Below, piece by piece: positions 19,837 to 48,793 of a stretch of DNA of 64,000 nucleotides; positions within the stretch are counted from its first letter, which is position 1, and each line of letters opens with the position of its first letter. The notes under the pieces were generated by a model that made no database searches, was not told the origin of the DNA, and saw only the letters and a program-made list of their open reading frames with translations. Made by a program: the position numbers and the translations under genes. Source of the DNA: Pseudophaeobacter sp. EL27 (GTDB lineage Bacteria; Pseudomonadota; Alphaproteobacteria; Rhodobacterales; Rhodobacteraceae); the NCBI RefSeq assembly GCF_900313025.1, contig NZ_OMPQ01000015.1, positions 381,775 to 445,774 of the forward strand, in the 5' to 3' direction.

Positions 19837-21368
19837 CGCGGCCCAACATCCTGGTGATCATGGCAGATCAGCTGGCGCCCCAGTTTACGGGTGCTTACGG
19901 ACATCCTGTCGCCAAAACTCCGCACCTTGATGCCCTCGCGGCGCGTGGTATGAGGTTTGACGCTTCTTATTGCAACTCACCGCTCTGTGCACCCTCCCGT
20001 TTTGCCTTCATGTCGGGACAACATATCAGCCGTATTGCGGCCTATGATAACGCCTCCGAATTCAAGGCCTCGGTGCCAACCTTTGCGCATTATCTGAAAT
20101 CATTGGGCTACCGGACCTGCCTGGCTGGTAAAATGCACTTTGTTGGTCCTGACCAAATGCACGGGTTTGAGGATCGGATTACCACAGATATTTACCCCGC
20201 TGACTTTGCCTGGACGCCTGATTGGGAAGCCCCGGATGAGCGGATCGACAAATGGTACCACAACATGCAGACCGTCAAGGAGAGCGGTCTGGCCCAGGCA
20301 ACCTTTCAGATTGATTATGATGATGAAGTTGCCTTTGCCGCCAAGCGTTGGCTGTTTGATGTGGCGCGGGACAAGGCGCTCGGCAACGATGCGCCCTTTG
20401 CAATGGTTGCAAGTTTCATCCACCCGCATGACCCTTATGTTGCGCGGCCTGAGTGGTGGCATCTCTATTGTGATGATGAGATCGACATGCCCGCCTTTGT
20501 ACCCACGCTGGAAGATCAGGATCCTTTCTCACGCCGCTTGATGGATGGGATAGAGGCCTCCTATGTGCCTCTAACGGAGGAAGAAGTGCGCCGAGCCCGC
20601 CACGCATATCTGGCAAATGTCAGCTACTTCGACAGTCAGATCGGCGCTCTGGTTCAAACCCTGGAAGAGACAGGTGAGTTGGACAACACCATCGTGATTG
20701 TCACAGCCGACCACGGCGACATGCTGGGTGAACGTGGCCTGTGGTACAAGATGAACTTCTTTGAACACTCCGCCCGTGTACCGCTGGTGATGGCAGGTCC
20801 AAATATTGCAACCGGTACGGCACAGAACGCCGTCTCCTTGGTGGATATGTTGCCAACCTTTATCGACATCGGTGGCGGCGATCCGGCGATGATCGGAGAA
20901 CCAATTGATGGGCGCAGTCTGATGCCGCTGGCGCGCGGTGAAGACGACCCCATCGATGAAGCCATCGGGGAATACTGCGCTGAAATGACCGGCTATCCTG
21001 TCATCATGATCCGGCGCGGCTCTTTGAAATACATTCATTGCGACAGCGACCCGGCCCAGCTTTATGACCTCAGCGTGGACCCTTTGGAGACCAGCAATCT
21101 GGCAACGGATGCAGGCTACGCTGATGTGGCCGCAGGTTTTGCAGCAGAAGTGGCCGCCCGGTGGGATGGGGAGGCTCTGCGACAGAAGATCATCGCAACC
21201 CAGAAATCCCGCCGAACCCTGCATGCCGCAATGGAAGCGGGTGCAAGTGAGCCCTGGGACTACAACCCGCCCTCCGACGCAAGCCAGCACTATGTGCGCA
21301 ACCACATGGATTGGACAGTGGCCGCCAACCGCTATCGCTATCCACCTATGAAGGACCATGACCAATGA
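19833..21368 (+). CDS. betC: Choline-sulfatase-like arylsulfatase (BetC family)
   Basis: A 511-residue cytoplasmic sulfatase without signal peptide, closely patterned on choline-O-sulfatase BetC: MADQLAPQFTGAYGHPVAKTPHLDALAARG at the start, the formylglycine motif Cys52-Ala-Pro-Ser-Arg56, GKMHFVGPDQMHGFE, the metal-binding TADHGDMLGERGLWYKMNFFE, and the BetC-specific C-terminal domain ending PWDYNPPSDASQHYVRNHMDWT. It should release sulfate from choline-O-sulfate or a related ester after Cys52 is converted to formylglycine; an FGE gene lies 21 kb downstream. It starts with GTG inside a GTGA overlap with the Rieske gene. Its setting, without betA/betB/betI, is unlike usual betC loci. Confidence 0.88.
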   Translation: MTRPNILVIMADQLAPQFTGAYGHPVAKTPHLDALAARGMRFDASYCNSPLCAPSRFAFMSGQHISRIAAYDNASEFKASVPTFAHYLKSLGYRTCLAGKMHFVGPDQMHGFEDRITTDIYPADFAWTPDWEAPDERIDKWYHNMQTVKESGLAQATFQIDYDDEVAFAAKRWLFDVARDKALGNDAPFAMVASFIHPHDPYVARPEWWHLYCDDEIDMPAFVPTLEDQDPFSRRLMDGIEASYVPLTEEEVRRARHAYLANVSYFDSQIGALVQTLEETGELDNTIVIVTADHGDMLGERGLWYKMNFFEHSARVPLVMAGPNIATGTAQNAVSLVDMLPTFIDIGGGDPAMIGEPIDGRSLMPLARGEDDPIDEAIGEYCAEMTGYPVIMIRRGSLKYIHCDSDPAQLYDLSVDPLETSNLATDAGYADVAAGFAAEVAARWDGEALRQKIIATQKSRRTLHAAMEAGASEPWDYNPPSDASQHYVRNHMDWTVAANRYRYPPMKDHDQ

Positions 21369-22159
21369 TGCTGAACGGAAAGATCGCCCTTGTCACAGGA
21401 GCACGCGGGGGGATCGGCCGCGCAATTGTCGCCCGCTTTGTAAAGGAAGGGGCCACAGTTTTTGCCGCTGACCTCACGGCTGAGGGATCTATGGATCGCC
21501 ATGACGATGATGGCAGCCATTTTGTAAAGCTGGACGTGACCCAGGAAGCCGACGCCATTGCCGCGATGGACCATGTTCGCGAACGGCACGGCAAGCTGGA
21601 TATCTTGGTGAATGCCGCAGGCATTGAGATCGAAAAGACGGTCGAGGAAACCACGCTTGAAGAATGGAACCAGAGCTTTGCGGTGAATTCAACGGGCACT
21701 TTCTTGACCTCGAAATACGCCATTCCGCTGATGCGTGAAGCTGCCAAATCCGGCAGCAGCGCCAGCCTGATCAACTTTGGTTCTTATGATGGGTTTATTG
21801 CAGATCCTGGGCTTGCCGCCTATTGCGCGACCAAGGGCGCGGTGCATGCCCTGACCCGCGCGATGGCCTGTGATCATGGTCCCGAAGGTATCCGGGTCAA
21901 CGCTATTTGCCCCGGCTATATCGACACACCGATGCTGCAGAGCTTCTTTAACGGCGATGGATCCGGCGGTGGCGGCGGCAATATTGAAACGCTACAAAAG
22001 GCCGTGCGGGATGTGCATCCGATGCGCACCTATGGCACGCCGACGGATATTGCCAACCTGGTAAATTGGTTGGCCTCGGATGAGGCCCGCTATGCCTCTG
22101 GCCAGTTGTGGGTCTTGGACGGGGGGCTGTCTGCACAAGTGCAACAGATGAAACTCTGA
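21365..22159 (+). CDS. Short-chain dehydrogenase/reductase
   Basis: A 264-residue classical SDR. The nucleotide-binding motif is TGARGGIG at residues 11-18, NAAG near 86, the catalytic Ser in INFGSYDG, and YCATK (Tyr-x-x-x-Lys) near 157-161, followed by IRVNAICPGYIDTPM. It likely oxidises a secondary alcohol with NAD(P). The start overlaps the sulfatase stop (ATGA), so translation is coupled. Within this operon it could oxidise a hydroxyl group freed by the sulfatase or one made by the oxygenase. Confidence 0.88.
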   Translation: MMLNGKIALVTGARGGIGRAIVARFVKEGATVFAADLTAEGSMDRHDDDGSHFVKLDVTQEADAIAAMDHVRERHGKLDILVNAAGIEIEKTVEETTLEEWNQSFAVNSTGTFLTSKYAIPLMREAAKSGSSASLINFGSYDGFIADPGLAAYCATKGAVHALTRAMACDHGPEGIRVNAICPGYIDTPMLQSFFNGDGSGGGGGNIETLQKAVRDVHPMRTYGTPTDIANLVNWLASDEARYASGQLWVLDGGLSAQVQQMKL

Positions 22160-23091
22160 TGGCCAAATCTGTTATCATCACATGCGCCCCGACGGGTGGC
22201 ATCCACACCCCATCCATGTCGCCCCACTTGCCGATCACCCCGGCTGAAATCGCAACCGCCAGCATCGAGGCGGCAGAGGCCGGGGCCTCAATCATCCATC
22301 TGCACGCACGCCACCCCGAGACCGGAAAACCAGATCCACGTCCCGAATTGTTTGCGCAGTTCCTGCCCGTCATCAAGCAATCCACCGAGGCCGTGATCAA
22401 TGTCTCAACCGGTGGTGGACTTGGCATGTCGATGGATGATCGCCTGTTGGCGGCGACCTCAACCAGTCCGGAAATGGCTTCGCTCAACATGGGGTCCATG
22501 AATTTTGGCATTTTCCCGATGCTGCAGAAATACACCGAGTTTCAGCACGACTGGGAACGCCCCTTTCTCGAGATGACCGAGGACTTTATTTTCCCCAACA
22601 CCTTCAAGACCATTCGCTACGCTATTGAAAAACTAGGGGGCGAGCATGGGACAAAGTTCGAATTTGAATGCTACGACCTTGGCCATCTCTACAATATCAA
22701 ATGGTTTGTGGACCAGGGCGTGATCAAGCCCCCCTTTTTCATTCAGATGGTGTTTGGCATCCTGGGCGGTGTCGCCGCTGATCCCGACCATCTGACACAT
22801 ATGCACAACACAGCCAATAAGCTGTTTGGGGCAGAGAACTACGAATGGTCGGTCCTGGCCGCCGGGCGACATCAGATGCAATTTGCGACCCATAGCGCCA
22901 TGCGTGGCGGCAACCTGCGGGTGGGGCTTGAAGATAGCCTGTTCATTGGCAAAGGGGAATTGGCCCAGTCCAATGCAGAACAAGTCTTACGCATTCGCAC
23001 TATCATTGAAAATCTTGGCCTTACGGTCGCCACTCCTGCCGAAGCGCGGGAGAGACTGGCGCTGAAGGGCGGCGATCAGGTCGGGTTTTAG
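22159..23091 (+). CDS. Beta-keto acid cleavage enzyme (BKACE, DUF849)
   Basis: A 310-residue zinc TIM-barrel enzyme. BKACEs condense a beta-keto acid with acetyl-CoA to yield acetoacetyl-CoA and a shorter acid or amine. The N-terminal ITCAPTGGIHTPSMSPHLPITPAEIA, the zinc ligands in IHLHAR (His46, His48), NVSTGGG and the C-terminal GGNLRVGLEDSL with the catalytic Glu are all present. In carnitine degradation this step turns 3-dehydrocarnitine into glycine betaine. A carnitine-dehydrogenase-like gene in the same operon supports that role here. ATG 22159 overlaps the preceding stop (TGATG). Confidence 0.88.
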   Translation: MAKSVIITCAPTGGIHTPSMSPHLPITPAEIATASIEAAEAGASIIHLHARHPETGKPDPRPELFAQFLPVIKQSTEAVINVSTGGGLGMSMDDRLLAATSTSPEMASLNMGSMNFGIFPMLQKYTEFQHDWERPFLEMTEDFIFPNTFKTIRYAIEKLGGEHGTKFEFECYDLGHLYNIKWFVDQGVIKPPFFIQMVFGILGGVAADPDHLTHMHNTANKLFGAENYEWSVLAAGRHQMQFATHSAMRGGNLRVGLEDSLFIGKGELAQSNAEQVLRIRTIIENLGLTVATPAEARERLALKGGDQVGF

Positions 23092-23101
23092 GGAGGACCA
23101 C

Positions 23102-24520
23102 ATGCAGACAAAAATGTTGATCAACGGCGAATTGGTTACGGGCACTGGCGCCGCACTGGATGTGCTCAACCCCGCTACAGGCGAGCTGATCGGCAAGGTC
23201 AATGAGGCCAGCCCGGAGCAGGTTGAGGCGGCGGTGAAGGGATCAGAGGAAGCCTTTGAGATCTTTTCGGCCAGCCCCCCTTCTGAGCGCGCAGCATTGC
23301 TTTTGCAGATTGCCGATGTGATCGAGGCAAACAGTCATGAGCTCGCTGAGCTTGAAAGCCTTGATGTCGGCAAACCCTGGCCCTCGGCTCATGATGACGA
23401 GATGCCGTTGACCATTGATGTGTTCCGGTTCTTTGCCGGGGCGGCACGTACAATGATGGGCTCTGCCGCGGGTGAATATGTTGCTGGACATACCTCCATG
23501 ATCCGGCGCGATCCCGTTGGCCCTGTTGCAGCCATTGCGCCTTGGAACTACCCGCTGATGATGGCGTCCTGGAAATTGGCTGCTCCGATCGCAGCCGGCT
23601 GCTCAGTGGTTTTGAAGCCCTCGGAACTAACACCTTTGTCCACGCTCCGGCTGGCAGAGCTGTTGCAGGATGTGTTGCCAAAGGGAGTGCTGAACGTTCT
23701 GCACGGGGGTGGCCTGAATGTTGGAGACGCGCTGATTAACAGTCCGCAAATGGAAGCGATCAGCGTGACAGGATCGCCTGCAACCGGCATGGCTGCAATG
23801 CGGGCGGCCTCTCAGCAGATCCGGCAAGTGCATCTTGAACTGGGCGGCAAGGCGCCAGTCATTGTGTTTGAGGATGCCGATCTGGAAGCCGTGGCTGAAA
23901 CCATCCGCTATGGCAGCTATTTCAACGCCGGTCAGGACTGTGCACAGCCCTGCCGGGTGATGGTGGCTGACAGTGTCTATGATCAGCTTGTTGCCCTGAT
24001 CGCGGATCAGGTTGGCCAGATCCAGATCGGCGCCCCCAGGGCTGAAGGCACCGAGATGGGTCCCCTTGTTTCCGTCGCACAAAGAGATCGCGTTGCGGGC
24101 TTTGTCGACCGCGCCCGTGCATCCGCTGAAATCGTCTCAGGCGGGGAAATGGGGGATGGCGCGGGGTTCTATTATCGCCCCACGGTGATCGCAAATGTCG
24201 ACAATGATGCCGAGGTCGCCAGTAAAGAGATCTTTGGTCCCGTGGTTACCGTCTCTCGTTTCTCGGATGCGGATCAGGCGCTTAAAATAGCCAACGCGGG
24301 CCCCTATGGTCTAGCCTCTTCAGTTTGGACCCTTGACGTTGGGCGCGCGATGCAGATGACCTCAAAACTGCGATATGGCTTTACCTGGGTGAACACCCAT
24401 GGCGTTGCCACCCCTGAAATGCCCTGGGCCGCGATGAAAGGCTCTGGCACCGGAAGCGATATGTCGGTCTATGCGCTGGACGCCTATACGGCAGTCCGCC
24501 ATGTGATGGTTGCGCACTGA
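23102..24520 (+). CDS. NAD(P)-dependent aldehyde dehydrogenase (PatD/betaine-aldehyde type)
   Basis: A 472-residue ALDH. The Asn of the active site is in APWNYPLMMA, the general base Glu in LELGGKAP (near 253), and the catalytic Cys in FNAGQDCAQPCR (near 287); the EIFGPV motif follows near 380. The NAGQDC version is typical of gamma-aminobutyraldehyde and related omega-aminoaldehyde dehydrogenases, so a betaine aldehyde or trimethylammonio-aldehyde is a fair guess. The start follows GGGAGGACCAC, the only clear internal ribosome site in the operon. Its stop overlaps the next start. Confidence 0.9.
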   Translation: MQTKMLINGELVTGTGAALDVLNPATGELIGKVNEASPEQVEAAVKGSEEAFEIFSASPPSERAALLLQIADVIEANSHELAELESLDVGKPWPSAHDDEMPLTIDVFRFFAGAARTMMGSAAGEYVAGHTSMIRRDPVGPVAAIAPWNYPLMMASWKLAAPIAAGCSVVLKPSELTPLSTLRLAELLQDVLPKGVLNVLHGGGLNVGDALINSPQMEAISVTGSPATGMAAMRAASQQIRQVHLELGGKAPVIVFEDADLEAVAETIRYGSYFNAGQDCAQPCRVMVADSVYDQLVALIADQVGQIQIGAPRAEGTEMGPLVSVAQRDRVAGFVDRARASAEIVSGGEMGDGAGFYYRPTVIANVDNDAEVASKEIFGPVVTVSRFSDADQALKIANAGPYGLASSVWTLDVGRAMQMTSKLRYGFTWVNTHGVATPEMPWAAMKGSGTGSDMSVYALDAYTAVRHVMVAH

Positions 24521-25260
24521 TGCGGTTGGCAGGAAAGCGCGCCTTCGTGACTGGCGGAAGGCAAGGTATCGGGCGTGGCATTGTGGATGCGTTTATGGCC
24601 GAAGGGGCTACGGTTACAGCCTGTGGCCGCGGGGCCCGTCCTGAGGGGTTGCCGGAGTGTGTGATCTGGCACTGTCTCGATGTGTCCGATCCGCAGGCGG
24701 TTGAGGAAATTGTCGGGGCCACTGGCGGCACTGAAATCTTAGTGAATAACGCCGGAGTACAGGTCGAAAGAACCGTCACTGACAGCTCTGATGAGGACTG
24801 GGACTTGGTGATGGGAGTGAATGCACGCGGCGTGTTCAACATCTGTCGTGCCTTCATCCCTATCATGTCAGCGGGATCGTCTATCATCAACATCGGCTCG
24901 ATCTCGGGAAATGTCGCAGACCCCTCCATGGCGCTGTACAATGCTTCCAAGGCATTTGTGCACGGGCTCACCCGCTCCATTGCCGTGGATCACGGGCCGG
25001 ATGTGCGCTGCAACGCGATATGCCCCGGCTGGATCGAAACCGGGATGCTGGATGCAGGCTTTGATCTTGCCACTGATCCGGCCAAGGCCAAATCGGATGC
25101 CTTGGCCCGTCATGCGGTCAACCGCTTTGGCAAACCTGCCGATATTGCAGCTATGGCTGTTTGGCTGGCTTCAGATGAGTCTGCCTTTGCGACGGGACAA
25201 TTGTTCACTATTGACGGCGGCATGACTGCGGCCTCGCCTCTCAATCCAGGGTTATTCTAA
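24520..25260 (+). CDS. Short-chain dehydrogenase/reductase
   Basis: A 246-residue classical SDR, distinct from the one at 21365. TGGRQGIGRG is the cofactor motif, NNAG near residue 79, catalytic Ser in NIGSISGN, and YNASK near 145-149, then CNAICPGWIETGM. It overlaps the ALDH stop by one base and its own stop overlaps the next start by one base. Two SDRs in one operon suggest either two alcohol oxidation steps or handling of two stereoisomers. Substrate not known. Confidence 0.88.
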   Translation: MRLAGKRAFVTGGRQGIGRGIVDAFMAEGATVTACGRGARPEGLPECVIWHCLDVSDPQAVEEIVGATGGTEILVNNAGVQVERTVTDSSDEDWDLVMGVNARGVFNICRAFIPIMSAGSSIINIGSISGNVADPSMALYNASKAFVHGLTRSIAVDHGPDVRCNAICPGWIETGMLDAGFDLATDPAKAKSDALARHAVNRFGKPADIAAMAVWLASDESAFATGQLFTIDGGMTAASPLNPGLF

Positions 25261-26192
25261 TGGTCCATATTGAAAGAACCGCCATTCTCGGGGCCGGAGT
25301 CATTGGCGCAAGCTGGGCTTCGCTGTTCCTCGCCTCGGGGCGTAGTGTCGCTGTGTTTGATCCTGAGCCGAATGTCGAAAAATCCGTGCGTAGCTATATT
25401 GATAAGGCCTGGCCTGCGCTGGAAGAATTGGGGCTCTCAGATCGTGCAACCCCTGATGCCATTCGGTTTTTCTCAACAGCCGGAGAGGCGGTAAAGGAGG
25501 CACAGTTTGTGCAGGAAAACGTGCCTGAGCGTTTGCCGATCAAGTTTGCCACCTACCAAGAGATCGAACCTGTACTGGATGCCGAGGCGATTGTGTCCAG
25601 CTCGACATCCGGTCTGACGCTTGAAGCCCTACAAGAGGGCTGGACACATCCTGCAAGGCTGATCCTGGGGCATCCGTTCAACCCCCCTCACCTGATCCCA
25701 CTCGTAGAGCTGACCGCCAATGATGCCACAGCCGCGCAGGTTCTGGACCGGACCGAAGCCTTTTACAAAGATATCGGCAAGGTCACGATCCGGATCAACA
25801 AGGGGCTGCCCGGACATGTTGCAAACCGTTTGCAGGCTGCCGTCTGGCGCGAGGCAGTCCATATGGCCGTCGAGGGCGTTGCCAGTGTCGAAGATATCGA
25901 TAAGGCCATGTGGGCAGGCCCTGGGCTGCGCTGGGCCGCCATGGGGCCAACAACGCTCTTTCACCTGGGCGCCGGTGAAGGTGGGCTGAAAGCCTTTTGC
26001 GACCATTTCAAAGACACGTTTAACGGATGGTGGGATGATCTGGGCGATCCCCGGCTGGATGAGCAAGTGATCAAACTATTGGTAGATGGCATGGCCTCGC
26101 AGGCACAGGGACAAAGCCCCCATGAGCTCGCTTCCCAGCGGGATAAAATGCTCACTGCCATGCAAAAAGCTACCCGGCATCTGCGCTCTTAA
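25260..26192 (+). CDS. L-carnitine dehydrogenase-like 3-hydroxyacyl-CoA dehydrogenase family protein
   Basis: A 310-residue NAD-dependent enzyme of the 3-hydroxyacyl-CoA dehydrogenase fold. GAGVIGASWASLFLASG is the Rossmann motif (residues 11-27), QENVPERLPIK, SSSTSGL and LGHPFNPPHLIPLVEL match carnitine 3-dehydrogenase (CdhA/LcdH), including the catalytic His in GHPFNP. It would oxidise the 3-hydroxyl of carnitine or a similar betaine to the beta-keto acid cleaved by the BKACE at 22159. Last gene of the operon; its 3' end overlaps the regulator on the other strand by 23 bases. Confidence 0.8.
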   Translation: MVHIERTAILGAGVIGASWASLFLASGRSVAVFDPEPNVEKSVRSYIDKAWPALEELGLSDRATPDAIRFFSTAGEAVKEAQFVQENVPERLPIKFATYQEIEPVLDAEAIVSSSTSGLTLEALQEGWTHPARLILGHPFNPPHLIPLVELTANDATAAQVLDRTEAFYKDIGKVTIRINKGLPGHVANRLQAAVWREAVHMAVEGVASVEDIDKAMWAGPGLRWAAMGPTTLFHLGAGEGGLKAFCDHFKDTFNGWWDDLGDPRLDEQVIKLLVDGMASQAQGQSPHELASQRDKMLTAMQKATRHLRS

Positions 26193-39697: not shown

Positions 39698-40780
39698 ATG
39701 CAAAATAAAACTGCACAATACCTGCAACTGGCGCTGATCCTTGGCGCAGGAGTGATTGGCGCCATGGCCGCGCAGTGGCTAGGCCTGCCGATCCCATATC
39801 TCCTCGGCAGCATGTCCGCTTCGGCGATCGTCTCTCTGACGACCTATTCGCGCAGCGGAGAAAAACTGTGGTTTCCGGTTCAACTGCGTCACGTCTTTAT
39901 AGCCATCATCGGCATCATGATCGGGACTACATTTAGCCCAGAAGCACTTAAGACCGCGCCAATCCTGGCCATTACTCTTTGCGCTATGATGCTGTTTGTT
40001 TGCGCGGCGCAAATACTAAACTTTGGCATTTTTCATCACATCGGCGGCTATGACAGGGTGACTGCCAAATATGCTGCCATGCCCGGTGGATTGATCGAAG
40101 CTGTCACTCTTGGTGAAAAAGCCGGCGGTGATGTGGAGACCATGAGTATTCAGCATTTTGTGCGGATCGTGTTGGTCATCATGTTTGTGCCAACCCTGTT
40201 TCAGATCTTTTCTGGTGAAACGGTAGGGAGCGCGGCAGGCCAGACACTGGAAAGTTCTCCGTCGGATTGGACTGACTGGCTTTTCTGCGCAGTATTTGCC
40301 CCGGTTGGGATTTGGCTCGGTGCACGGCTAAAGTTACCGGCCAGCCATCTCATGGGGCCTTTGCTGCTGACAGCGCTTCTTCATGCGGTCATGGCCGTTG
40401 ATATTCAGGGCCCCAGCGCCTTGTTGAATTTGGCGCAACTCATCGTTGGCGCGGGCCTCGGTGTTAACTTTGCCCGTTCCACGCTGCGCCATCTTTTGTC
40501 GGCCTTTGCACTGGGCTTTTTGTCCGTTGCCACGACCTTGATCATGGCCTCTGGGTTTGCCTATTTGCTCGCAGGTGTGGTGCCGATGTCTTTCACGGCA
40601 CTGCTTATCAGCTTTGCCCCAGGGGGCGTGACCGAGATGAGCCTGGTTGCGCTTAGTCTCGGCGTGGCGCCCGTTTTGGTCACCACACACCATCTGTTTC
40701 GCATCATCTTTACTGTGACAATAGCCGGCATAGTGACTGCGAGGGCTGAACGCCTTGGCAAGGGCAATCCCGGATCTTAA
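39698..40780 (+). CDS. AbrB-duplication-family membrane protein
   Basis: A ~360-residue integral membrane protein of the AbrB/'ammonia monooxygenase' (misnamed) family, built of two repeats of about five helices; LGLPIPYLLGSMSASAIV in repeat 1 and LKLPASHLMGPLLLTALLHAV in repeat 2 are the family hallmarks. Function in this family is unsettled, but transport is likely. ATG 39698 gives the usual N-terminus; ATG 39656 and TTG 39605 are also in frame and no start has a clear ribosome site. It ends 8 bases before the FGE gene, so the two are co-transcribed. Confidence 0.82.
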   Translation: MQNKTAQYLQLALILGAGVIGAMAAQWLGLPIPYLLGSMSASAIVSLTTYSRSGEKLWFPVQLRHVFIAIIGIMIGTTFSPEALKTAPILAITLCAMMLFVCAAQILNFGIFHHIGGYDRVTAKYAAMPGGLIEAVTLGEKAGGDVETMSIQHFVRIVLVIMFVPTLFQIFSGETVGSAAGQTLESSPSDWTDWLFCAVFAPVGIWLGARLKLPASHLMGPLLLTALLHAVMAVDIQGPSALLNLAQLIVGAGLGVNFARSTLRHLLSAFALGFLSVATTLIMASGFAYLLAGVVPMSFTALLISFAPGGVTEMSLVALSLGVAPVLVTTHHLFRIIFTVTIAGIVTARAERLGKGNPGS

Positions 40781-40788
40781 GGTGCCTC

Positions 40789-41739
40789 ATGGCTGAATCA
40801 CCACATCCCAAAAGCTGCTGTATTCCCCAAAGGGACGGCACCTCAGACAGCAATCCAACACCTGTTTTTGCTGGCAAACCAAAGCTTCGCCCGGCGCCGG
40901 ATGCTGTGCTTATACCCGGCGGTGCTTCGCTGCTAGGGACAGCCGCCCCCCAAATCCCCGATGATGGCGAAGACCCATTGCGCAAGACGCGGATCAAACC
41001 CTTTCGAATGGGGGCGACCAGCGTGACCAATGCCCAATTCAAAGCCTTTGTCGAGGCAACTGGCTATGTCACCGAAGCCGAACGATTTGGCTGGTCCTTT
41101 GTGTTTTGGGCCCAGGTTCCTGAAACCCTGGGAGCAACTCAAGGCGTGGTCGATGTTGAATGGTGGCGCCGCGTTGACGGAGCCAACTGGCGTGACATCA
41201 ACGGGCCCGGCACCATGGCCGAACACTGGCATCCGGACCATCCGGTGGTGCAGGTGTCCTGGAATGACGCACGGGCCTATGCGGAATGGGTGGGCGGGCG
41301 CCTTCCAACCGAGGCAGAATGGGAACATGCAGCCCGCGGCGGCAAGGGCGATGTCAGATACCCCTGGGGTGATCAAGAACCCAATGATACGGATTTCCAG
41401 CCCTGTAACATCTGGCAGGGCCAGTTCCCCAAAGTGAATACCGCCAAAGATGGCTTTGCAGCTACGGCTCCGGCACAGTTCTATGAACCCAATGGCTATG
41501 GATTGTACAATCTGGTGGGCAATGTCTGGGAATGGACGGCCGAAGCCTACCGGATCAAGTCACTCAAGAAACATGTGCGCCTGCGTCTTGCCGGGATGAA
41601 GGGCTATAAGCTGAGCAAGGGCGGGTCCTTCCTGTGCCATAAGTCCTATTGCTACCGCTACAGGATCGCCGCGCGGTCCGGCACCTCGCCGGATAGCGCG
41701 ACAACACATCAGGGGTTTCGCGTAGTTTGGCCTACGTGA
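40789..41739 (+). CDS. Aerobic formylglycine-generating enzyme (sulfatase-modifying factor)
   Basis: A 316-residue SUMF1/FGE. It converts the active-site Cys of sulfatases to formylglycine with O2 and copper. The catalytic cysteine pair is Cys283 and Cys288 in GGSFLCHKSYCYRYR, followed by ARSGTSPDSATTHQGFRV; the middle domain has HPVVQVSWNDARAYAEWVGGRLPTEAEWEHAARGG and GNVWEW. Having both cysteines marks a true FGE rather than an EgtB-like relative. It should activate the sulfatases at 43073 and 19833, both of which carry Cys-x-Pro-x-Arg. Its 3' end overlaps a truncated sulfatase on the other strand by 31 bases. Confidence 0.92.
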   Translation: MAESPHPKSCCIPQRDGTSDSNPTPVFAGKPKLRPAPDAVLIPGGASLLGTAAPQIPDDGEDPLRKTRIKPFRMGATSVTNAQFKAFVEATGYVTEAERFGWSFVFWAQVPETLGATQGVVDVEWWRRVDGANWRDINGPGTMAEHWHPDHPVVQVSWNDARAYAEWVGGRLPTEAEWEHAARGGKGDVRYPWGDQEPNDTDFQPCNIWQGQFPKVNTAKDGFAATAPAQFYEPNGYGLYNLVGNVWEWTAEAYRIKSLKKHVRLRLAGMKGYKLSKGGSFLCHKSYCYRYRIAARSGTSPDSATTHQGFRVVWPT

Positions 41740-41942
41740 CTGCCTTGCGCTAAACGCTTTGCTGTCCTGAGACTGGCGATAACGCTGCTTGCCAATCGAG
41801 TCGCCGCAAATGCATCAAGATTGGGTGTCTGCACAACAGCATGATTTTCACAGGACATTGCCTGCACCTGATGTTGGTCAGACAGGATGACCAGCAGGTT
41901 GAGGGGCTCTTGTTCAAGCGTCAGACCCGGAAGAATAGACAT
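41709..41942 (-). pseudogene. Truncated sulfatase with ruined active-site motif
   Basis: A 77-codon frame from ATG 41942, behind a good ribosome site (GGCAGGAGTG). Residues 15-49 (LNLLVILSDQHQVQAMS ... VQTPNLDAFAAT) are a clear sulfatase N-terminus with the first metal-binding Asp. Where a formylglycine motif such as LCTPSR is expected, the frame reads LRTAKR (58-63), so the Cys, Pro and Ser are lost, and it stops soon after; about 400 residues are missing. Its start overlaps the end of the hydroxy-acid dehydrogenase gene by 29 bases, so it was once the last gene of the sulfatase operon. Confidence 0.7.
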
Positions 41943-43059
41943 CACTCCTGCCGATTGAAGCAAGGTTGTTTTTCCCCGCGAGTCCCATGGTGGTACGCAG
42001 CTCTTTTTGCAGAATTTCAAGCAGATGCGAAATTCCCGGCTGCCCCATAGCGCCCAGCGCATAAACCATTGCACGTCCCAAAAGAACGCCAGAAGCACCC
42101 TGCGCGCGGGCCCGGAAAATGTCCATTCCGGTGCGCACCCCGGAATCCAGCATCAATTCCATGTCATCCCCCACGGCGTCCGCGATCCTTGGCAGCCAGG
42201 AAATAGAGCTGCCTGCCCCGTCCAATTGGCGACCGCCATGATTGGAGACAACGATGGTTTCAATCCCCATGCCCGCGGCAATCTTGGCGTCTTCAGCGTC
42301 CATGATGCCCTTCAGGATGATGGGGCCATCCCATTCCCTGCGGATCCATTCGACATCTGCCCAGTCCAACGAGGGGTCCACCATCTCCACCGCCCAGGTC
42401 AGCAGGCTGCTGAGGTCATCAATGCCTTTGGCATGGCCGATGACATTGCCAAAGCTCTTGTAGGGCGTGGTGGCCATTTCCATCGCCCAACGGGGTTTGG
42501 TCGCGATATTGAGCATGTTTTTCAGGTTGGGCCGGATCGACAGCTGGTTTTTCACATCCTTGTGGCGTTGCCCCAACATGGAAAGATCCATGGTGACCAC
42601 CAGCTTGGAACACCCTGCAGCCTTGGCGCGATGAATCAGATCCCGGACAAAATCCCTATCCTTGACCACATAGAGCTGAAACCAAAAGGGCTGCCCCGTG
42701 GCCTCGGCCACCTGTTCAATCGAGCAGATCGACATGGTGGACAGAATGAAGGGTACGCCAAAATCGCGCGCAGCTTTGGCCACCTTGATCTCGCCCCCGG
42801 CATTCTGAATTCCCAGCATGCCAACCGGTGCAAAGGCCACGGGCAGGTTGGCGGTCTCCCCCGCCAAAAGGGCCGAGGTGTCGATATCCGTGATATCCCT
42901 GCCGACCCTTTGGCGGATGTTCAGGTTCTGAAAATCGGCCTCGTTCCGGCGAAAGGTCGTCTCGGTGTAAGAGCCGCTTTCCGCATAGTCATAAAACATC
43001 TTCGGAACGCGGCGTTTGTACAGCTGGCGGAAGTCTTCAACGCAGGTGATGGGTGGCAT
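41914..43059 (-). CDS. FMN-dependent alpha-hydroxy-acid dehydrogenase (L-lactate dehydrogenase/glycolate oxidase family)
   Basis: A 381-residue TIM-barrel flavoprotein that oxidises L-2-hydroxy acids to 2-keto acids. Seen are the N-terminal RVPKMFYDYAESGSYTETTFRRNEADF, PVAFAPVGM, the QLYVVKDR and TMDLSMLGQRHKDV segments, and the catalytic VVSNHGGRQLDGAGSS with the His-Gly-Gly-Arg signature. ATG 43059 follows GGGAGAGCTCAGCA and lies 13 bases after the sulfatase stop. The coupling suggests that the hydroxy acid freed by the sulfatase is its substrate. Confidence 0.9.
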   Translation of the reverse strand: MPPITCVEDFRQLYKRRVPKMFYDYAESGSYTETTFRRNEADFQNLNIRQRVGRDITDIDTSALLAGETANLPVAFAPVGMLGIQNAGGEIKVAKAARDFGVPFILSTMSICSIEQVAEATGQPFWFQLYVVKDRDFVRDLIHRAKAAGCSKLVVTMDLSMLGQRHKDVKNQLSIRPNLKNMLNIATKPRWAMEMATTPYKSFGNVIGHAKGIDDLSSLLTWAVEMVDPSLDWADVEWIRREWDGPIILKGIMDAEDAKIAAGMGIETIVVSNHGGRQLDGAGSSISWLPRIADAVGDDMELMLDSGVRTGMDIFRARAQGASGVLLGRAMVYALGAMGQPGISHLLEILQKELRTTMGLAGKNNLASIGRSDVYSSGSDA

Positions 43060-43072
43060 TGCTGAGCTCTCC

Positions 43073-44599
43073 CTATGCCATGCCAACAGGCGTCTGATTG
43101 GGACGCATGTCATCTGGGCGTGTCATCAGGATCAGGGTCAGATCAGATTTCAATGCGGCATATTCCGGGTCATCAAACACATTGGTCAGCTCATCCGGAT
43201 CGTTTTCCAGATCGTACATTTCCCCGGCACCGGACTTCAGATCCACCGTCAGTTTGGCGGTTTTGCTCCGGACTGTGCGCAGGGACAGACCCACACCAAC
43301 TCGTCCAGGCAGCAGCTCCCATTCGCTGAGCGCGCCCTCGCGGGTGCCGTCGCCACTGATAACGTCGCGCATGGAGCGCCCGTGGATCTCCATCAGGCTG
43401 TCGGCATCGGCCCAATCCATAAAGGTGGCCCCCAGATCCAGCGTCGAGAGCGGCTCGTGGCTGACCTTGCCCACCGGAACATCCGGGCCTTTGACAATGG
43501 CACGTACGTTCAGAAGGCCTTCAAAGGGCATCGGCCCCTTTAGCACCAGGCCGTGATCCCCCAACCAATCGCCATGGTCGGCCGTGTAGACAATATAAGT
43601 GTTCTCCGCGAGGCCCTGGGCTTCGAGCTCGGCAATGATACGTCCAACCGAATGGTCAATCAGCGAGAGCTGCCCATAGGTATTGGCAATGATCTCGCGC
43701 AGATGCTCATCCGAGACCTCAGGGAAGCGCGAGTAGCTGGTCCGGATCTCCGCTCCCTTACCTTCGATCTTGGTTTCCACCGCAGCCTGATGCCACCAGG
43801 GGCGGCCCTCAAAGTCACGGGTGCGATGCTCCGGCAGATCGACGTCTTCAGGCTTATGAAGCGAGGCCCAGGGTTCGGGGCAGTCAAAGGGATGATGCGG
43901 ATCGGGAAATGAGACCCACATGCAGAAGGGCTTGTCATGATCCTGTTTCAGGAAATCAATCGCCCGGTCAGCGATCCAGGTCGAGTTATGCCAGGCCACC
44001 GGCAGCTTTGAGGTCCAGACCTGCGGTGCCCCGTTGTGGTCCTTGTGGCTTTCCCACAGCAGTTTGTTTTTCTGCTCCCCGCGCCCATCGCCATAGTACC
44101 ATTCCTCATAGGCCAACCCATGCGGGGGCTTTTCAGGCAGCCACCAGTTGTGGCCGATATGGACCAGCTCGGCATGGTCAAACCCCATGTAGGGGCCGCG
44201 CCAGCCTTCTGGCACCCTGGCCGAACCGGGAATGGATTCCACCGTGTCGTGGTCCTCAAACACATGGTAGGTGGCAAAATGTGCCTTGCCGATTTTGGCG
44301 GTATGATAGCCCGCTGCCGACAGGGATGCGGCAAAGCCCTTTTCGCCGATCTCAGGGTCCAGATCGATGCCATTGTCATGCACCCCGTGAGTACGCGGCA
44401 GCAGCCCGGTCAGGATCGAGGCCCGTGCGGGCTGGCAGACCACGCAGGGCGTGACCACGGTTTCCAGACTGGTGCCCTCGCTGGCCAGCATATCCAGATG
44501 CGGGGTGTAGACATTACGCCCACGAAACCCATAGCAATCGCCGCGCTGCTGGTCCGAGGTGATGAACAGAATATTGGGTTTGGAAGCTGCATCAGTCAT
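43073..44599 (-). CDS. Cytoplasmic sulfatase (Cys-type, alkaline phosphatase superfamily)
   Basis: A 508-residue sulfatase with no signal peptide. SKPNILFITSDQQRGDCYGFRG holds the first metal-binding Asp; Cys55-Gln-Pro-Ala-Arg59 is the formylglycine motif; KIGKAHF, SFPDPHHPFDCPEPW and YTADHGDWLGDHGLVLKG are the remaining catalytic blocks. It lies between TctA and an alpha-hydroxy-acid dehydrogenase on the same strand, with 37 and 13 base gaps. Most sulfatases of this type are exported, so a cytoplasmic one paired with an importer points to use of an imported sulfate ester. Start follows CGGAGACAAAA. Confidence 0.92.
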   Translation of the reverse strand: MTDAASKPNILFITSDQQRGDCYGFRGRNVYTPHLDMLASEGTSLETVVTPCVVCQPARASILTGLLPRTHGVHDNGIDLDPEIGEKGFAASLSAAGYHTAKIGKAHFATYHVFEDHDTVESIPGSARVPEGWRGPYMGFDHAELVHIGHNWWLPEKPPHGLAYEEWYYGDGRGEQKNKLLWESHKDHNGAPQVWTSKLPVAWHNSTWIADRAIDFLKQDHDKPFCMWVSFPDPHHPFDCPEPWASLHKPEDVDLPEHRTRDFEGRPWWHQAAVETKIEGKGAEIRTSYSRFPEVSDEHLREIIANTYGQLSLIDHSVGRIIAELEAQGLAENTYIVYTADHGDWLGDHGLVLKGPMPFEGLLNVRAIVKGPDVPVGKVSHEPLSTLDLGATFMDWADADSLMEIHGRSMRDVISGDGTREGALSEWELLPGRVGVGLSLRTVRSKTAKLTVDLKSGAGEMYDLENDPDELTNVFDDPEYAALKSDLTLILMTRPDDMRPNQTPVGMA

Positions 44600-44636
44600 T
44601 TTTGTCTCCGTTGACAGGGGCAGTTGCCCCGTTCGG

Positions 44637-46217
44637 TTATTTCAGTTTGGGGCCACCGCGCAGCCAGCCCGCGCCGGAGATGATGGCGGTGGCCAGGATC
44701 AGGAAGACCACGGAAATCGGGCTGCGGAACAGGAACCAGGGATCGCTGCCCGTGGCCTCGAATGCGCTACGGATAGTTGTTTCCAGCGGACCAGCCAGGA
44801 TATAGGCGATGACAAAGGGTAGGATCGGTATATCGGTGGACCGCATGAGGTACCCAAGTGCGCCAAAGAACAGCAGCACATAGACGTCGCTCATATTGCT
44901 GCCCTGCACATAGACCGAGGTCAGCGTCAGCAGCAGAACAATCGGCAACAGGATCTGTTTGGGCACATGGATCAGCCCGCCCAAAAGGCGCATGAACCAG
45001 GCCCCCGTTGTCCAGTTCAACAGATTGGCCGCCACCATCAGGGTGAACAGCGCAAAGGCCACCACCAGCTCGGGATTGACCTCATCCGCGGAAAAACGGA
45101 ACACCGATGGGCCGGGATTGAAGCCGCCGATAGTGTCAGCCGCCAAAATGATGAATACGGCCGCTACATTGCCCGGAATACCGAGGCTGAGCGCCGGGAT
45201 CAGATTGGCGCCCGACACCGCCGAGTTCGCAGCTTCGGTCGCAGCGATACCTTCGGGCGCACCTTTGCCAAAATCAGTCTCCCCTTGGTACATCTTGCGC
45301 CCAGCCGTATAGCCAAGGGCTGCGGCCAGCGTCGTGCCGATCCCTGGCAGCGCGCCAATGACCGTGCCAATGCTCATGGAGACACCGATAAAGGGCAGCA
45401 GTTTACGTCGCTCACCCATGCTGAGCGAGGTATCCCCCGGTGCGATTTTGGGCGGGGCTTTCTGCTTTTCGCGGGCAGAACGCCACATGTCTTCAAAGCT
45501 GACAAAGATCTCGCCAACCACCAGGACGCCGATCACAACCGCAATTGTTGGCAGGCCAGAAGCAAGCACATCGCTGCCCATCGACAGACGCGGATAAGAG
45601 TCGGTGCCCGTGGCGATCGAAGCTACCAGGAGACCAAAACAGGCGGCTAAAATGCCCTTGAAGGTATCGTTCCCGACGACCACGGCGACAAAGGACAGCG
45701 AGAGGATCATCAGCGCGGATTTCTCCGGCAGGCCAAGAAAGGCCTCGATCGAAATCGCCAGAAACGGCGCGCAGACAAAGAGCACGATGTCAGAAAACGT
45801 ATCGCCACTGACGGAGGCAAAATGCGCAACCCGCAGGGCCTTGCCGCCCTGGCCGTTTTTGGCCATCGGATGACCATCCAAGGTGGTCATAAAGGCATCA
45901 GGGGTGCCCGGCGTATTGAACAGGATGGCAGGCACGGCACCGCCAACCGTTGCCCCCTTCATCACTCCGACCAGAAAGCCAAGCACCGGCAGCAGTGCAT
46001 CTGGTGTGAAGCCAAAGATCGAAATCAGGATCGGCAGCGCCAGTGCCATGGCAAAGGGGCCGGATAAACCCGGTGTGGCACCAATCAAGACCCCGATAAA
46101 GAAGCCCAGGGCCACCAGTAGGATCGGCCAGGACAGAACAATCGGGCCTAGAACGATGGCCGGATTGCCAAAGAGGGCCTCCATGACGCCTGCCAGGATA
46201 TACTCTAGCACGCCCAT
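44637..46217 (-). CDS. tctA: Tripartite tricarboxylate transporter, large permease TctA
   Basis: A 526-residue membrane protein with about 11-12 helices. GVLIGATPGLSGPFAMALALPI (near residue 40) and ALPGIGTTLAAALGYTAGRKMY (near 290) are the two internal-repeat signatures of TctA, and GVPAI/NTPGTPDAFMTTLDGHPM is also typical. It forms the channel with TctB and uses TctC for ligand delivery. Its ATG overlaps the TctB stop by one base. Confidence 0.93.
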   Translation of the reverse strand: MGVLEYILAGVMEALFGNPAIVLGPIVLSWPILLVALGFFIGVLIGATPGLSGPFAMALALPILISIFGFTPDALLPVLGFLVGVMKGATVGGAVPAILFNTPGTPDAFMTTLDGHPMAKNGQGGKALRVAHFASVSGDTFSDIVLFVCAPFLAISIEAFLGLPEKSALMILSLSFVAVVVGNDTFKGILAACFGLLVASIATGTDSYPRLSMGSDVLASGLPTIAVVIGVLVVGEIFVSFEDMWRSAREKQKAPPKIAPGDTSLSMGERRKLLPFIGVSMSIGTVIGALPGIGTTLAAALGYTAGRKMYQGETDFGKGAPEGIAATEAANSAVSGANLIPALSLGIPGNVAAVFIILAADTIGGFNPGPSVFRFSADEVNPELVVAFALFTLMVAANLLNWTTGAWFMRLLGGLIHVPKQILLPIVLLLTLTSVYVQGSNMSDVYVLLFFGALGYLMRSTDIPILPFVIAYILAGPLETTIRSAFEATGSDPWFLFRSPISVVFLILATAIISGAGWLRGGPKLK

Positions 46218-46777
46218 CAGATGTCACCGTTGGGGGGCAGAAGAAGGTTGTCAAAAGGCAGATCATAGATCAGCGCGATCAGCACTGTTGAAACCAGAGC
46301 CAGAAGGACAAACTTCCAGCTGAACCTGTGGCTTGTCAGGGCAGTAAAACAGAAAATCATAAAGCTGCCTCCGATGACAAAACCAATGTATTTCCAGGGT
46401 GCGGTGTCCAGCAGCAGGCGATAAGGGGTCTCGCCGAAAAACCAGAGCCAAACAATCAAGGGTCCACTCACCTGCATAAGGGTCAGCCCCAGTGCCATAA
46501 CAAGGCAACTCGTTACCAAAAAAACGGGGGAGATCACGCGGTGGAGGCCATTGGGCACAAGGACAATGGCCCGCACCAGCATTACCAAACCAGCCAGCAG
46601 CATTCCTGCGGCGGCAAAACTCGGCAACATGGCATCCCCGATGCGGATGGTCCGGCGCCAGACATCGACAACACCGGTGTCAATATCTGCAGGTATCCAA
46701 ACCCCTAGGGCGACGAGGGCAGAGCCTATTGCGGCGAGGCCAAGCACGATTTCACGTAATTTACCTGGATGATCCAT
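46217..46777 (-). CDS. tctB: Tripartite tricarboxylate transporter, small permease TctB
   Basis: A 186-residue membrane protein with four predicted helices, typical TctB topology, and a soluble N-terminal stretch including FPAADIDTG-like IPADIDTGVVDVWRRTIRIGDAMLP. Sequence conservation in this family is weak, so the call rests on size, topology and place between TctC and TctA. Start preceded by GGGGGAGCA. Confidence 0.85.
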   Translation of the reverse strand: MDHPGKLREIVLGLAAIGSALVALGVWIPADIDTGVVDVWRRTIRIGDAMLPSFAAAGMLLAGLVMLVRAIVLVPNGLHRVISPVFLVTSCLVMALGLTLMQVSGPLIVWLWFFGETPYRLLLDTAPWKYIGFVIGGSFMIFCFTALTSHRFSWKFVLLALVSTVLIALIYDLPFDNLLLPPNGDI

Positions 46778-46803
46778 TGCTCCCCCCTCGTGTTTTCAGG
46801 TGA

Positions 46804-47745
46804 TCATTCGGCAGTCGCGTTCAGCAAGGCTTCGGCATCCGCCAATTCGCCTTCGACATAGCTGCGTGCCTCTTCTCCGGTCATGACCTTGATGGTCAAA
46901 GCCTTTGAAATGAAGGCATTGGATTTGGTGCCATCCTTCTGAACCACGGTTGAAATGGCATCGGACAGCGCCAGTCTCGCGTCATCCGGCAGACCCGCCG
47001 GGGCAATGGCCACGAAGGTTGCACCAAAGAAGAAGTCGACACCGATGTCGGCCAAAGGCTGCGCGTCAGGAGAGACCATAAGCGGCTTGTCTTCACCATT
47101 GGCCAGGTTGAGCAGATCACCGGCGGCAACCCCTGATTTTTGCGGGCCGGCCACCCAGCCGATGTCCACGTCTGATGCATTGACCGCATTCAGAACCGCT
47201 TTGCCGCCTTTGTAGCTGGAAACGATGTTGAATTCGACGCCGTTCATCTTGCCGATGTAATAGGCACCATCAGCCAATCGGGGGGTCATCGCGCCAAAGG
47301 AGATTTCCTCCCCGGCCTTTGCTGCTGCAATCACGTCAGACATGGTTTTCCAGCCGCGATCAGATTTGGCGACGATGCCCATCTGGGTGCCTGCCAGGGT
47401 GCTGAGGTATTCAAAATCACTGGTTGCATAACCAGGATCACGCGCCGCCAGGACGCCGTAAGCAAATGTATCGGTAATACCAACGCCGATGGTCAGCCCA
47501 TCAGCTGCGGAGTCTTTCACCGAACGTGCCATCACGCCACCACCAGCGCCGGTGACATTCTCAGGCAGCAGGGTCCAGCCATATTCGGCCTGGATATCTT
47601 CAGCGATCAGGCGCGCCATGGTGTCAGCACCACCGCCGGCCTTAAAACCAATCTGGAGCTTGATCGGGCCCGATGGAGCCCAGTCCGCATAGGCTGCAGA
47701 CACGGATAGTATCGCTGCGGCAGCAGCGCTCAATAGCGTTTTCAT
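46804..47745 (-). CDS. tctC: Tripartite tricarboxylate transporter substrate-binding protein TctC
   Basis: A 313-residue exported protein with signal peptide MKTLLSAAAAAILSVSAAYA and the Bug/TctC fold: APSGPIKLQIGFKAGGGADTMARLIAEDI and LPENVTGAGGGVMARSVKDSAADG carry the two carboxylate-binding loops. The ligand should be an organic acid. First gene of the operon tctC-tctB-tctA-sulfatase-dehydrogenase-(sulfatase remnant), divergent from a LysR regulator. Start follows AGGGAGGAAAC. Confidence 0.92.
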   Translation of the reverse strand: MKTLLSAAAAAILSVSAAYADWAPSGPIKLQIGFKAGGGADTMARLIAEDIQAEYGWTLLPENVTGAGGGVMARSVKDSAADGLTIGVGITDTFAYGVLAARDPGYATSDFEYLSTLAGTQMGIVAKSDRGWKTMSDVIAAAKAGEEISFGAMTPRLADGAYYIGKMNGVEFNIVSSYKGGKAVLNAVNASDVDIGWVAGPQKSGVAAGDLLNLANGEDKPLMVSPDAQPLADIGVDFFFGATFVAIAPAGLPDDARLALSDAISTVVQKDGTKSNAFISKALTIKVMTGEEARSYVEGELADAEALLNATAE

Positions 47746-47834
47746 GTTTCCTCCCTTTCGCTCAACAAGGTTGAACTGACCTCAGCTTACGAGAAGAAAT
47801 ATAGACCCGGAAATATTACTTGCATATGCTAGCC

Positions 47835-47850
47835 ATAACCTAATGGTTAT
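47835..47850. promoter_or_regulatory. Dyad between tctC and its LysR regulator
   Basis: ATAACC-TAAT-GGTTAT, a 6-4-6 inverted repeat, ends 14 bases before the regulator start and lies in the 118-base divergent region. Its position and T-N11-A-like form fit a LysR operator used for autoregulation and control of the TTT/sulfatase operon. Confidence 0.45.
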
Positions 47851-47863
47851 TGGAGAGCCTGAA

Positions 47864-48793
47864 ATGCGCCCAAGGCAGTTGTATCAGTTCCTGGCTATTT
47901 GCCGACATGGATCTATGTCGGCTGCCGCCCATGAACTGGGCATCGCGCAGCCAGCGCTCAGCAAACAGATCCTGCAGTTGGAACATGAGCTACAGGTCGA
48001 ACTGTTTGAGCGCCATTCGCGCGGGGTTACCCTGACCAAACCCGGAGAGAGATTGAGGTCGGAAGCCACCGAGTTGATCCGCCGTATTGAGGCAATCAAA
48101 ACCTCGATCCTGCGGCAAGACGACAATATCACCGGTACCGTCAATGTTGCAGTTATCGCCTCGCTTGCCCCTGTTCTGGCTGTCGAGCTCTATCCGCGCA
48201 TGGAGCAGCACTACCCTGGAATTACCCTGCATATTGCCGACCACTCCTCAGAACAGGCTGGCCAGGCCCTGTTAAACCAGGAGGCCGAGCTCGCCGTTAC
48301 CTCCAACGCTGCGACTGATCTGCCGCAGGCCCAGACGCACCCTCTGTTTGAGGAAAGTTTCTTTTTTGTCAGCCGGACAACGCCGCACGGACGTACAAAA
48401 CCTATGTCACTCGCAGAGGCCGCAGCCCAGCCTTTGGTCTTGCCCTTTCACAACCATGACCTGCGCCGCCGCCTCGAGGACGCAGCCCGCGGCATCGGTG
48501 TGTCACTGAATGTCAAATATGAAACCAGCAGTATCAATGTTCTTGGTGCAATTGTTGAACAGGGTCTGGCGGCCAGCATCGTGCCTGTGACCTATTGGCT
48601 GGACCGAATTGCCGCCGGCCGCATTGGCGCTCAGCTGGTTGTTGACCCCAGCGTCACACGGGTGCACTCCCTGTGCTGGATGCCGAAGCGGCCGATGTCG
48701 GCTGCAACCAAGGTTGTCCACGACACGCTGATCATGGAAATCCAATCACTGATTTCAGGCGGCAAACTCTCTGGAAAACTGATCCAGGTCTGA
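47864..48793 (+). CDS. LysR-family regulator of the TTT/sulfatase operon
   Basis: A 309-residue LysR regulator: MRPRQLYQFLAICRHGSMSAAAHELGIAQPALSKQILQLE is the winged HTH and the effector domain begins near residue 90 (GTVNVAVIASLAPVLAVEL), similar to the NAC/Cbl-like group. ATG 47864 is chosen since GGAGAG sits 6 bases ahead and ATG 47843 lies inside the dyad. Divergent from tctC, so it is the likely regulator. Confidence 0.9.
   Translation: MRPRQLYQFLAICRHGSMSAAAHELGIAQPALSKQILQLEHELQVELFERHSRGVTLTKPGERLRSEATELIRRIEAIKTSILRQDDNITGTVNVAVIASLAPVLAVELYPRMEQHYPGITLHIADHSSEQAGQALLNQEAELAVTSNAATDLPQAQTHPLFEESFFFVSRTTPHGRTKPMSLAEAAAQPLVLPFHNHDLRRRLEDAARGIGVSLNVKYETSSINVLGAIVEQGLAASIVPVTYWLDRIAAGRIGAQLVVDPSVTRVHSLCWMPKRPMSAATKVVHDTLIMEIQSLISGGKLSGKLIQV

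Follow-up and report, generated by a model that had tools for sequence, protein, structure and literature searches.

Gene content of the locus

Within a 64,000-nucleotide stretch of contig NZ_OMPQ01000015.1 of Pseudophaeobacter sp. EL27 (hereafter the window, meaning the whole stretch), positions 39698 to 48793 hold a predicted sulfatase, SULF1, and an FMN-dependent 2-hydroxy-acid dehydrogenase, HAD, encoded behind the genes of a tripartite tricarboxylate transporter (TTT). We consider here whether this gene set serves the catabolism of a small sulfated alpha-hydroxy acid. A sequence-only reading of the locus had described TctC-TctB-TctA, a sulfatase and an FMN dehydrogenase on one strand with short gaps, faced by an AbrB-type protein and a true FGE, with a LysR gene divergent at the far end. 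Open reading frames and Pfam matches bear out this layout, which is as follows.

39698-40780, plus strand: AbrB-type (Gneg_AbrB_dup) membrane protein; PF05145 at 240 bits, TIGR03082 above cut-off
40789-41739, plus strand: formylglycine-generating enzyme, FGE; PF03781 at 247 bits
41772-41900, minus strand: decayed piece of a second sulfatase (SULF2) from near its N-terminus, about 45 residues long; matches SULF2 of Lentibacter algarum (locus L034) at 62% identity over 45 residues, 56 bits
41914-43059, minus strand: HAD, FMN-dependent L-2-hydroxy-acid dehydrogenase, LldD-like; PF01070 at 422 bits
43073-44599, minus strand: SULF1, predicted cytosolic Cys-type S1 (formylglycine) sulfatase; PF00884 at 134 bits
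44637-46217, minus strand: TctA, large permease of the TTT; PF01970 at 331 bits
46217-46777, minus strand: TctB, small permease; from its position between TctC and TctA and from relatives
46804-47745, minus strand: TctC, periplasmic solute-binding protein; PF03401 at 71 bits
47746-47842, no strand: intergenic region between divergent genes; from position only, the likely promoter/operator of both the LysR gene and the tct-sulfatase operon
47843-48793, plus strand: LysR-family regulator; PF03466/PF00126

Along the minus strand, from TctC through TctB, TctA and SULF1 to HAD, neighboring genes are separated by 26 bases, a one-base overlap, 37 bases and 13 bases. The AbrB and FGE genes are convergent with this row, and the LysR gene is divergent from TctC. 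The SULF2 remnant between HAD and FGE had been overlooked in the sequence-only reading. A search for the gene order in other genomes, which that reading had proposed as a check, found that the order recurs in other genera; the arrangement is therefore not due to chance.

SULF1 begins with MTDAASKPNILFITSDQQ, where no signal-peptide-like stretch was seen by eye, in agreement with the earlier description of a sulfatase without a signal. The residues of its C-x-P-x-R motif (C55, P57, and R59), together with D16, Q17, K105, H107, H235, D341, H342, and K354, are invariant in 38 aligned sequences. SULF1 hence carries both the C/S-x-P-x-R motif and the metal, His and Lys catalytic set of S1 sulfatases. 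A structure model (pLDDT 92) was assigned the S1 sulfatase fold by fold search, with at most 27% identity to the 50 PDB structures among the matches listed; model and search confirmed the fold and gave no pointer to the substrate. Against the choline-sulfatase equivalog, SULF1 scored 175 bits and did not reach the cut-off of 433.

The genome has two FGE-family matches. One of them, the window FGE, aligns with solved FGEs at 288 bits, which upholds its description as a true FGE. It has the FGE domain and keeps in the alignment the cysteine pair (...SFLCHKSYCYRYR...) that we take to be the active-site Cys residues, and it would be expected to convert Cys55 of SULF1 to formylglycine. The second FGE-family gene (within L139, contig C8, 308000-327900) is 49% identical to the window FGE and has two further sulfatases flanking it.

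The start of HAD was placed at 43059, in preference to a longer open reading frame, for its better fit to relatives. HAD scored 426 against NCBIfam model PRK11197 (cut-off 376) and 374 bits against the canonical LldD model NF033901; because the latter falls short of the cut-off of 550, HAD is regarded as a relative of LldD, not as LldD itself. HAD is 43.5% identical to E. coli LldD, and all 7 aligned rows, that of E. coli LldD included, agree at Y25, Y130, D158, R165, K250, H274, and R277 of HAD. These are the Tyr, Tyr, Asp, Arg, Lys, His and Arg of LldD-like enzymes, presumably the catalytic set of the L-lactate dehydrogenase family. A role for HAD as the housekeeping LldD was set aside; another LldD-like paralogue, 55% identical to HAD, is encoded elsewhere in the genome.

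TctC, TctB and TctA stand in one operon, the arrangement of a TTT system. TctC carries a signal peptide, judged by eye, and matches Bug27 at 61 bits and 5oei at 48 bits, the latter being AdpC (PMC5812351, cited here and below from excerpts). TctB has no Pfam match and was named by position and relatives; these occupy the equivalent position at 34-93% identity, and the one in locus L165 is annotated as TctB. Relatives of the AbrB-type protein, possibly an accessory permease, were found at 59-69% identity in L034-L037, L040, L113, L164, and L165, and only as a fragment in L033.

Conserved linkage of SULF1 and HAD

Relatives of SULF1 were collected from a scan of named genomes (80 loci, of which 70, L033-L101 and L108, were used and ten at no more than 29% identity were left out), searches at the level of the family (29 of 295 genomes with a relative at E 1e-80 or better) and of the order (15 of 390 at E 1e-140), and a plasmid collection (8 records at E 1e-100). 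Clade I comprises loci with SULF1 at 77% identity or more; its 19 tree rows form one clade with support of 100/100, and L162-L164 were added later. Counting duplicates once (L114 equals L046, and L168 equals L035), it holds 22 distinct loci including the window, 21 of which extend past SULF1; L039, with 136 bases after SULF1, is left out of the 21. A band at 59-64% identity contains 31 loci (L049-L051, L097, L100, L115-L132, L167, and L169-L175) and omits those at 58% or below, among them L052, L053, L055, L096, L165, and L166. Three metagenome-assembled records (L055, L079, and L086) are titled Bordetella parapertussis, titles that the isolate names make doubtful. No SULF1 was found at E 1e-140 in the two other genomes of the window's genus that were listed in the order search, so the gene set is sporadic.

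An intact HAD lies directly behind SULF1, in the same order and on the same strand, in 13 of the 21 clade I loci (the window, L033, L038, L040, L041, L043-L046, L113, and L162-L164). The spacing is 14-35 bases between match ends, 11-12 bases as annotated in three plasmid records, and 13 bases in the window. At four of the 21 loci (L034-L037), an FAD enzyme of the D-lactate-dehydrogenase type (LDHD) directly adjoins SULF2; in L034, its best solved match is a mitochondrial-type D-lactate dehydrogenase at 479 bits. In three of these four (L034, L035, and L037), HAD survives only as roughly its first 90 residues, close behind SULF1, the match in L035 being weak (42% over 73 residues), and no remnant was found in the 831 bases after SULF1 in L036. 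L047 has a HIBADH-like dehydrogenase, named from its sequence by eye, at the place of HAD or LDHD.

No clade I locus holds both an intact HAD and LDHD (13 versus 4 loci). Mutual exclusion fails as a general rule, since both enzyme types are present in L165, plasmid unnamed3 of Sulfitobacter sp. SK012, which has both sulfatase-dehydrogenase pairs. The first is a row of MarR, SULF2 (62% over its length) and the FAD enzyme (71%); further on come TctCBA and a universal stress protein, then SULF1 (58%), then an FMN alpha-hydroxy acid oxidase with just 34% identity to HAD. On a second SK012 plasmid (L167, SULF1 at 62%), the FAD enzyme, at 82%, is convergent with SULF1. On unnamed3, a second TctC (42%) is divergent from MarR-SULF2-LDHD (L177, 39500-46500); an FGE-like stretch beside AbrB reads there in two pieces, and an unbroken FGE lies at L165:13280-14221.

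FMN_dh matches were present in 11 of the 70 named loci (eight of clade I plus L054, L077, and L080), at 1-3 kb from SULF1. An 18-row tree, in which the places of long branches are unsure, sorts the FMN enzymes encoded close to relatives of SULF1 into about four lineages: one of HAD, LldD and the genome paralogue, the L165 enzyme with another paralogue from the window's genome, the L054 enzyme, and the L077 enzyme, which that of L080 resembles.

As a control, FMN_dh matches of at least 190 bits and sulfatases were located in 14 genomes with SULF1, four of clade I and ten of the 59-64% band. Seven of 129 sulfatase rows were dropped (second pieces of split matches, one below the cut-off), leaving 122 sulfatase places, as were 60 of 97 FMN_dh rows, each at 54 bits or less. 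Four of the 37 FMN_dh matches lie within 10 kb of a sulfatase, and all four are HAD beside SULF1; the next nearest pair on one contig is 31 kb apart. Adjacency of a sulfatase and an FMN_dh gene is therefore not general in these 14 genomes.

A second sulfatase and an exchanged transporter

The SULF2 remnant has a counterpart at the equivalent place in Phaeobacter sp. 11ANDIMAR09 (L033), 74% identical over 34 residues. Among the eight sulfatase matches in the window's genome, the best match to SULF2 is the window's own choline sulfatase, at 33%. SULF2, usually with MarR, is divergent from TctC in 9 of the 22 clade I loci (L034-L038, L040, L047, L113, and L164), and in the 59-64% band it is present in 23 of 31 loci, with a cut piece in one more. 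The window locus is a reduced form of a fuller set that has two sulfatases and often MarR.

A LysR gene, at 48-98% identity, is divergent from TctC in L033, L039, L041, L043, L044, L046, L091, L162, and L163, and from SULF1 in L042; MarR-type loci have a MarR gene in its place. In the TctA tree, the window's LysR-type transporter belongs to a seven-row subgroup (100/100) apart from the MarR-type transporters, whereas the SULF1 proteins of the two types of loci are mixed in their tree. Transporter and regulator have thus been exchanged while SULF1 and HAD stayed together.

Proposed pathway and substrate

The observed gene content, conserved linkage, patterns of co-occurrence and loss, and intact catalytic motifs led us to consider an operon for the breakdown of a small alpha-hydroxy acid carrying a sulfate group, combining TTT import, cytosolic desulfation and flavin-dependent oxidation, and we put the chances of this reading at about even. 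TctC would bind the sulfated anion in the periplasm and TctAB would carry it inward. SULF1, with a formylglycine formed by FGE at Cys55, would cleave the S-O bond in the cytoplasm to give sulfate and the alpha-hydroxy acid, which HAD would oxidize to the 2-keto acid, with electrons passing to the respiratory chain; LysR would turn the operon on. The best argument is the repeated placement of partly non-homologous oxidases near SULF1, which suggests that an alpha-hydroxy acid is freed. This order of import, desulfation and oxidation had been put forward in the sequence-only reading, and it survives in part: the conserved SULF1-HAD pair, the several FMN lineages near SULF1 relatives and the D-dehydrogenase where HAD has decayed speak for it, whereas the two sulfatases and frequent MarR of the fuller set, and 31 loci without a nearby FMN dehydrogenase, show it to be incomplete or lend it no support.

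We infer the direction of flow, the substrate and the split between enantiomers as follows. Both dehydrogenases are of lactate-type families, which makes lactate-2-sulfate, with pyruvate as the product, the most likely substrate; next in line would be glycolate sulfate or a glycerate sulfate. A class I sulfatase is reported to hydrolyze secondary alkyl sulfates with retention (PMC5870055, likewise cited from excerpts), so the chirality of the dehydrogenase should mirror that of the substrate. Placement of an L-specific dehydrogenase after SULF1 and of a D-specific one after SULF2 would accordingly suggest two enantiomer arms. In the fuller form seen in relatives, one arm would consist of SULF1 and the L-specific FMN enzyme and the other of SULF2 and the FAD enzyme of the D-lactate-dehydrogenase type, one for each mirror form of the substrate, and the window would be an L-only form that kept the L arm (SULF1-HAD) and lost SULF2. 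It is a tentative and rather doubtful extension that this represents a two-armed, stereo-matched, TTT-fed lactate-2-sulfatase system, of the kind known as an activity since 1984, with which marine bacteria live on small organosulfates such as lactic and glycolic acid sulfate, sometimes from plasmids.

Several observations weigh against the import-desulfation-oxidation pathway. No FMN_dh match was found at any of the 31 loci in the 59-64% band (within it, L119 has only 244 bases beyond SULF1), and LDHD was found there in L167 (82%), with only 30% and 27% relatives in L115 and L121. The dehydrogenase is therefore not part of a universal core; the common core is the transporter and the sulfatases, with the dehydrogenase a frequent addition in one clade. 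Even in clade I, 4 of 21 loci have neither dehydrogenase (L042, L047, L048, and L091). The LDHD loci with a decayed HAD retain SULF1, which a strict split of one sulfatase per enantiomer would by itself leave unexplained, and the window lost SULF2 although an LDHD-type gene exists elsewhere in the genome. Also unexplained by the model are a third sulfatase in L165 and L166 and a metallo-beta-lactamase (MBL)-fold hydrolase beside SULF2 in 22 of the 31 loci, whose representative in L120 (L120:1909-2757) has an arylsulfatase, 8gyg, as its best solved match (67 bits). Finally, some SULF1 relatives at 48-57% identity have ABC transporters of the sugar or peptide type and sugar-acid enzymes as neighbors, with DUF4432, MocA-like and galactarate-dehydratase-like genes among the genes found there.

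Alternative explanations

Such neighbors bear on a different and less likely reading, in which the TTT and two sulfatases, often with the MBL hydrolase, serve the uptake of an acid that is larger or has several sulfate groups, for example a sulfated sugar acid, and HAD or LDHD has an accessory role in recycling a 2-hydroxy acid formed downstream. The 31 HAD-less loci at 59-64% would suit this role (30 have TctA, 23 SULF2, and 22 the MBL hydrolase), and a set of three adjacent hydrolases suggests more than a single ester. Distant SULF1 relatives stand beside DUF4432, MocA-type and GD_AH_C proteins, and a TTT system for galactarate/glucarate appears in Table 1 of PMC5812351. On the other hand, the dehydrogenase of clade I is directly behind SULF1, and the window operon contains no sugar-acid enzyme among its open reading frames and Pfam matches.

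A sulfate ester of an aromatic or bulky kind, such as a sulfated mandelate or aryl-lactate, is an unlikely substrate. Mandelate dehydrogenases do belong to the FMN family, and choline sulfatase, a relative, also cleaves aryl sulfates (PMC5870055). However, HAD clusters with LldD and the genome paralogue in the 18-row tree, which contains no mandelate dehydrogenase. In addition, a Met of HAD aligns with a Trp of human hydroxyacid oxidase 1, which we take to be Trp110, and Met at this position would suggest a pocket for a small side chain.

We see little chance that the neighbors are functionally separate, with the TTT importing a plain organic acid and the sulfatase having another purpose. TTT genes are common and varied (PMC5812351), and SULF1 occurs without TctA in L042, L048, and L169; against this, TctA is upstream of SULF1 in 20 of the 22 clade I loci and 30 of the 31 loci at 59-64%, despite the swapped LysR- and MarR-type transporters. 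It is highly improbable that the formylglycine enzyme hydrolyzes phosphonate monoesters or phosphodiesters instead of sulfates: the fold search did match solved phosphonate monoester hydrolases, at 22-24% identity, but several sulfatases (exo-2S iota-carrageenan sulfatase, 7oz8 and 4upi) score higher by both sequence and fold, and six annotated plasmid loci contain no phosphonate-named gene.

Choline-O-sulfate was rejected as the substrate, since SULF1 and SULF2 miss the choline-sulfatase model and the window has its own BetC (19833-21368; TIGR03417 at 704 bits, cut-off 433). The BetC gene is part of a separate cluster at 18715-26192, together with genes for a Rieske oxygenase (GbcA-like, below cut-off), short-chain dehydrogenases/reductases, a beta-keto acid cleavage enzyme, an aldehyde dehydrogenase and a carnitine-dehydrogenase-like protein, and this cluster looks like one for choline sulfate or carnitine-type catabolism.

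Other gene neighborhoods were also seen among the relatives. In L092 and L093, from SAR116 single cells, SULF1 relatives occur with further sulfatase-like genes and an ABC-type transporter (by eye), a galactarate-dehydratase-like gene with a small neighbor, and an Ldh_2 family dehydrogenase. Members of one gene cluster lie near the sulfatase set in L097 (3273-4805), L131, and L132, the one in L097 being an MTTB-family methyltransferase.

Comparison with known systems

The sequence-only reading had named no described pathway with this gene set. In the open-licence papers searched, we found no described cluster with the SULF1-HAD gene set and no paper on bacterial use of C2-C3 organosulfates. 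The order of reactions has a partial precedent in a D-lactate-2-sulphatase purified in 1984, to which we return below. C2-C3 organosulfates are frequently reported to rank in the top five organosulfates of PM2.5 by abundance, and at one Beijing site glycolic and lactic acid sulfate made up 47% and 11% of the quantified organosulfate mass (PMC12224290, excerpts). If the proposed pathway is correct, it would tie marine Rhodobacterales to these compounds.

Choline sulfatase BetC is a formylglycine sulfatase for an alkyl sulfate, as SULF1 is predicted to be, and belongs to the same fold class as SULF1; SULF1 and SULF2 differ from it in scoring 175 and 249 bits on the choline-sulfatase model, below its cut-off of 433. 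Sulfolactate is a C-S sulfonate, not a sulfate ester, so the SlcHFG sulfolactate pathway needs neither a sulfatase nor FGE, unlike the window locus. Common to the two would be a TTT that imports a small hydroxy acid bearing sulfur, such a transporter being listed for sulfolactate uptake in Roseovarius nubinhibens and Chromohalobacter salexigens; they differ in that tctB is downstream of tctA in the SlcHFG case (PMC5812351). The E. coli LldPRD system resembles the locus in its FMN dehydrogenase, LldD, to which HAD is 43.5% identical, but relies on LldP for transport and has no sulfatase in its stretch. LDHD and other D-2-hydroxy-acid dehydrogenases have their likeness in the FAD enzyme beside SULF2 in the sister loci (479 bits); at 55% identity to the LDHD-type protein elsewhere in the window's genome, this enzyme is a distinct paralogue of it.

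There is also a likeness in chemistry to the D-lactate-2-sulphatase purified from Pseudomonas syringae GG, which is named for the desulfation of a 2-sulfated hydroxy acid, lactate-2-sulfate, as proposed for the locus; the difference is that the former is known as an activity, its sequence, according to a 2018 paper (PMC5870055, excerpts), never having been determined. It is therefore the genes, not the chemistry, that would be new, and the locus would provide candidate genes for the 1984 activity. The gene set makes the old lactate-2-sulfatase question directly testable, and its paired sulfatase-dehydrogenase layout offers a simple test of stereo-matching between the two enzymes.

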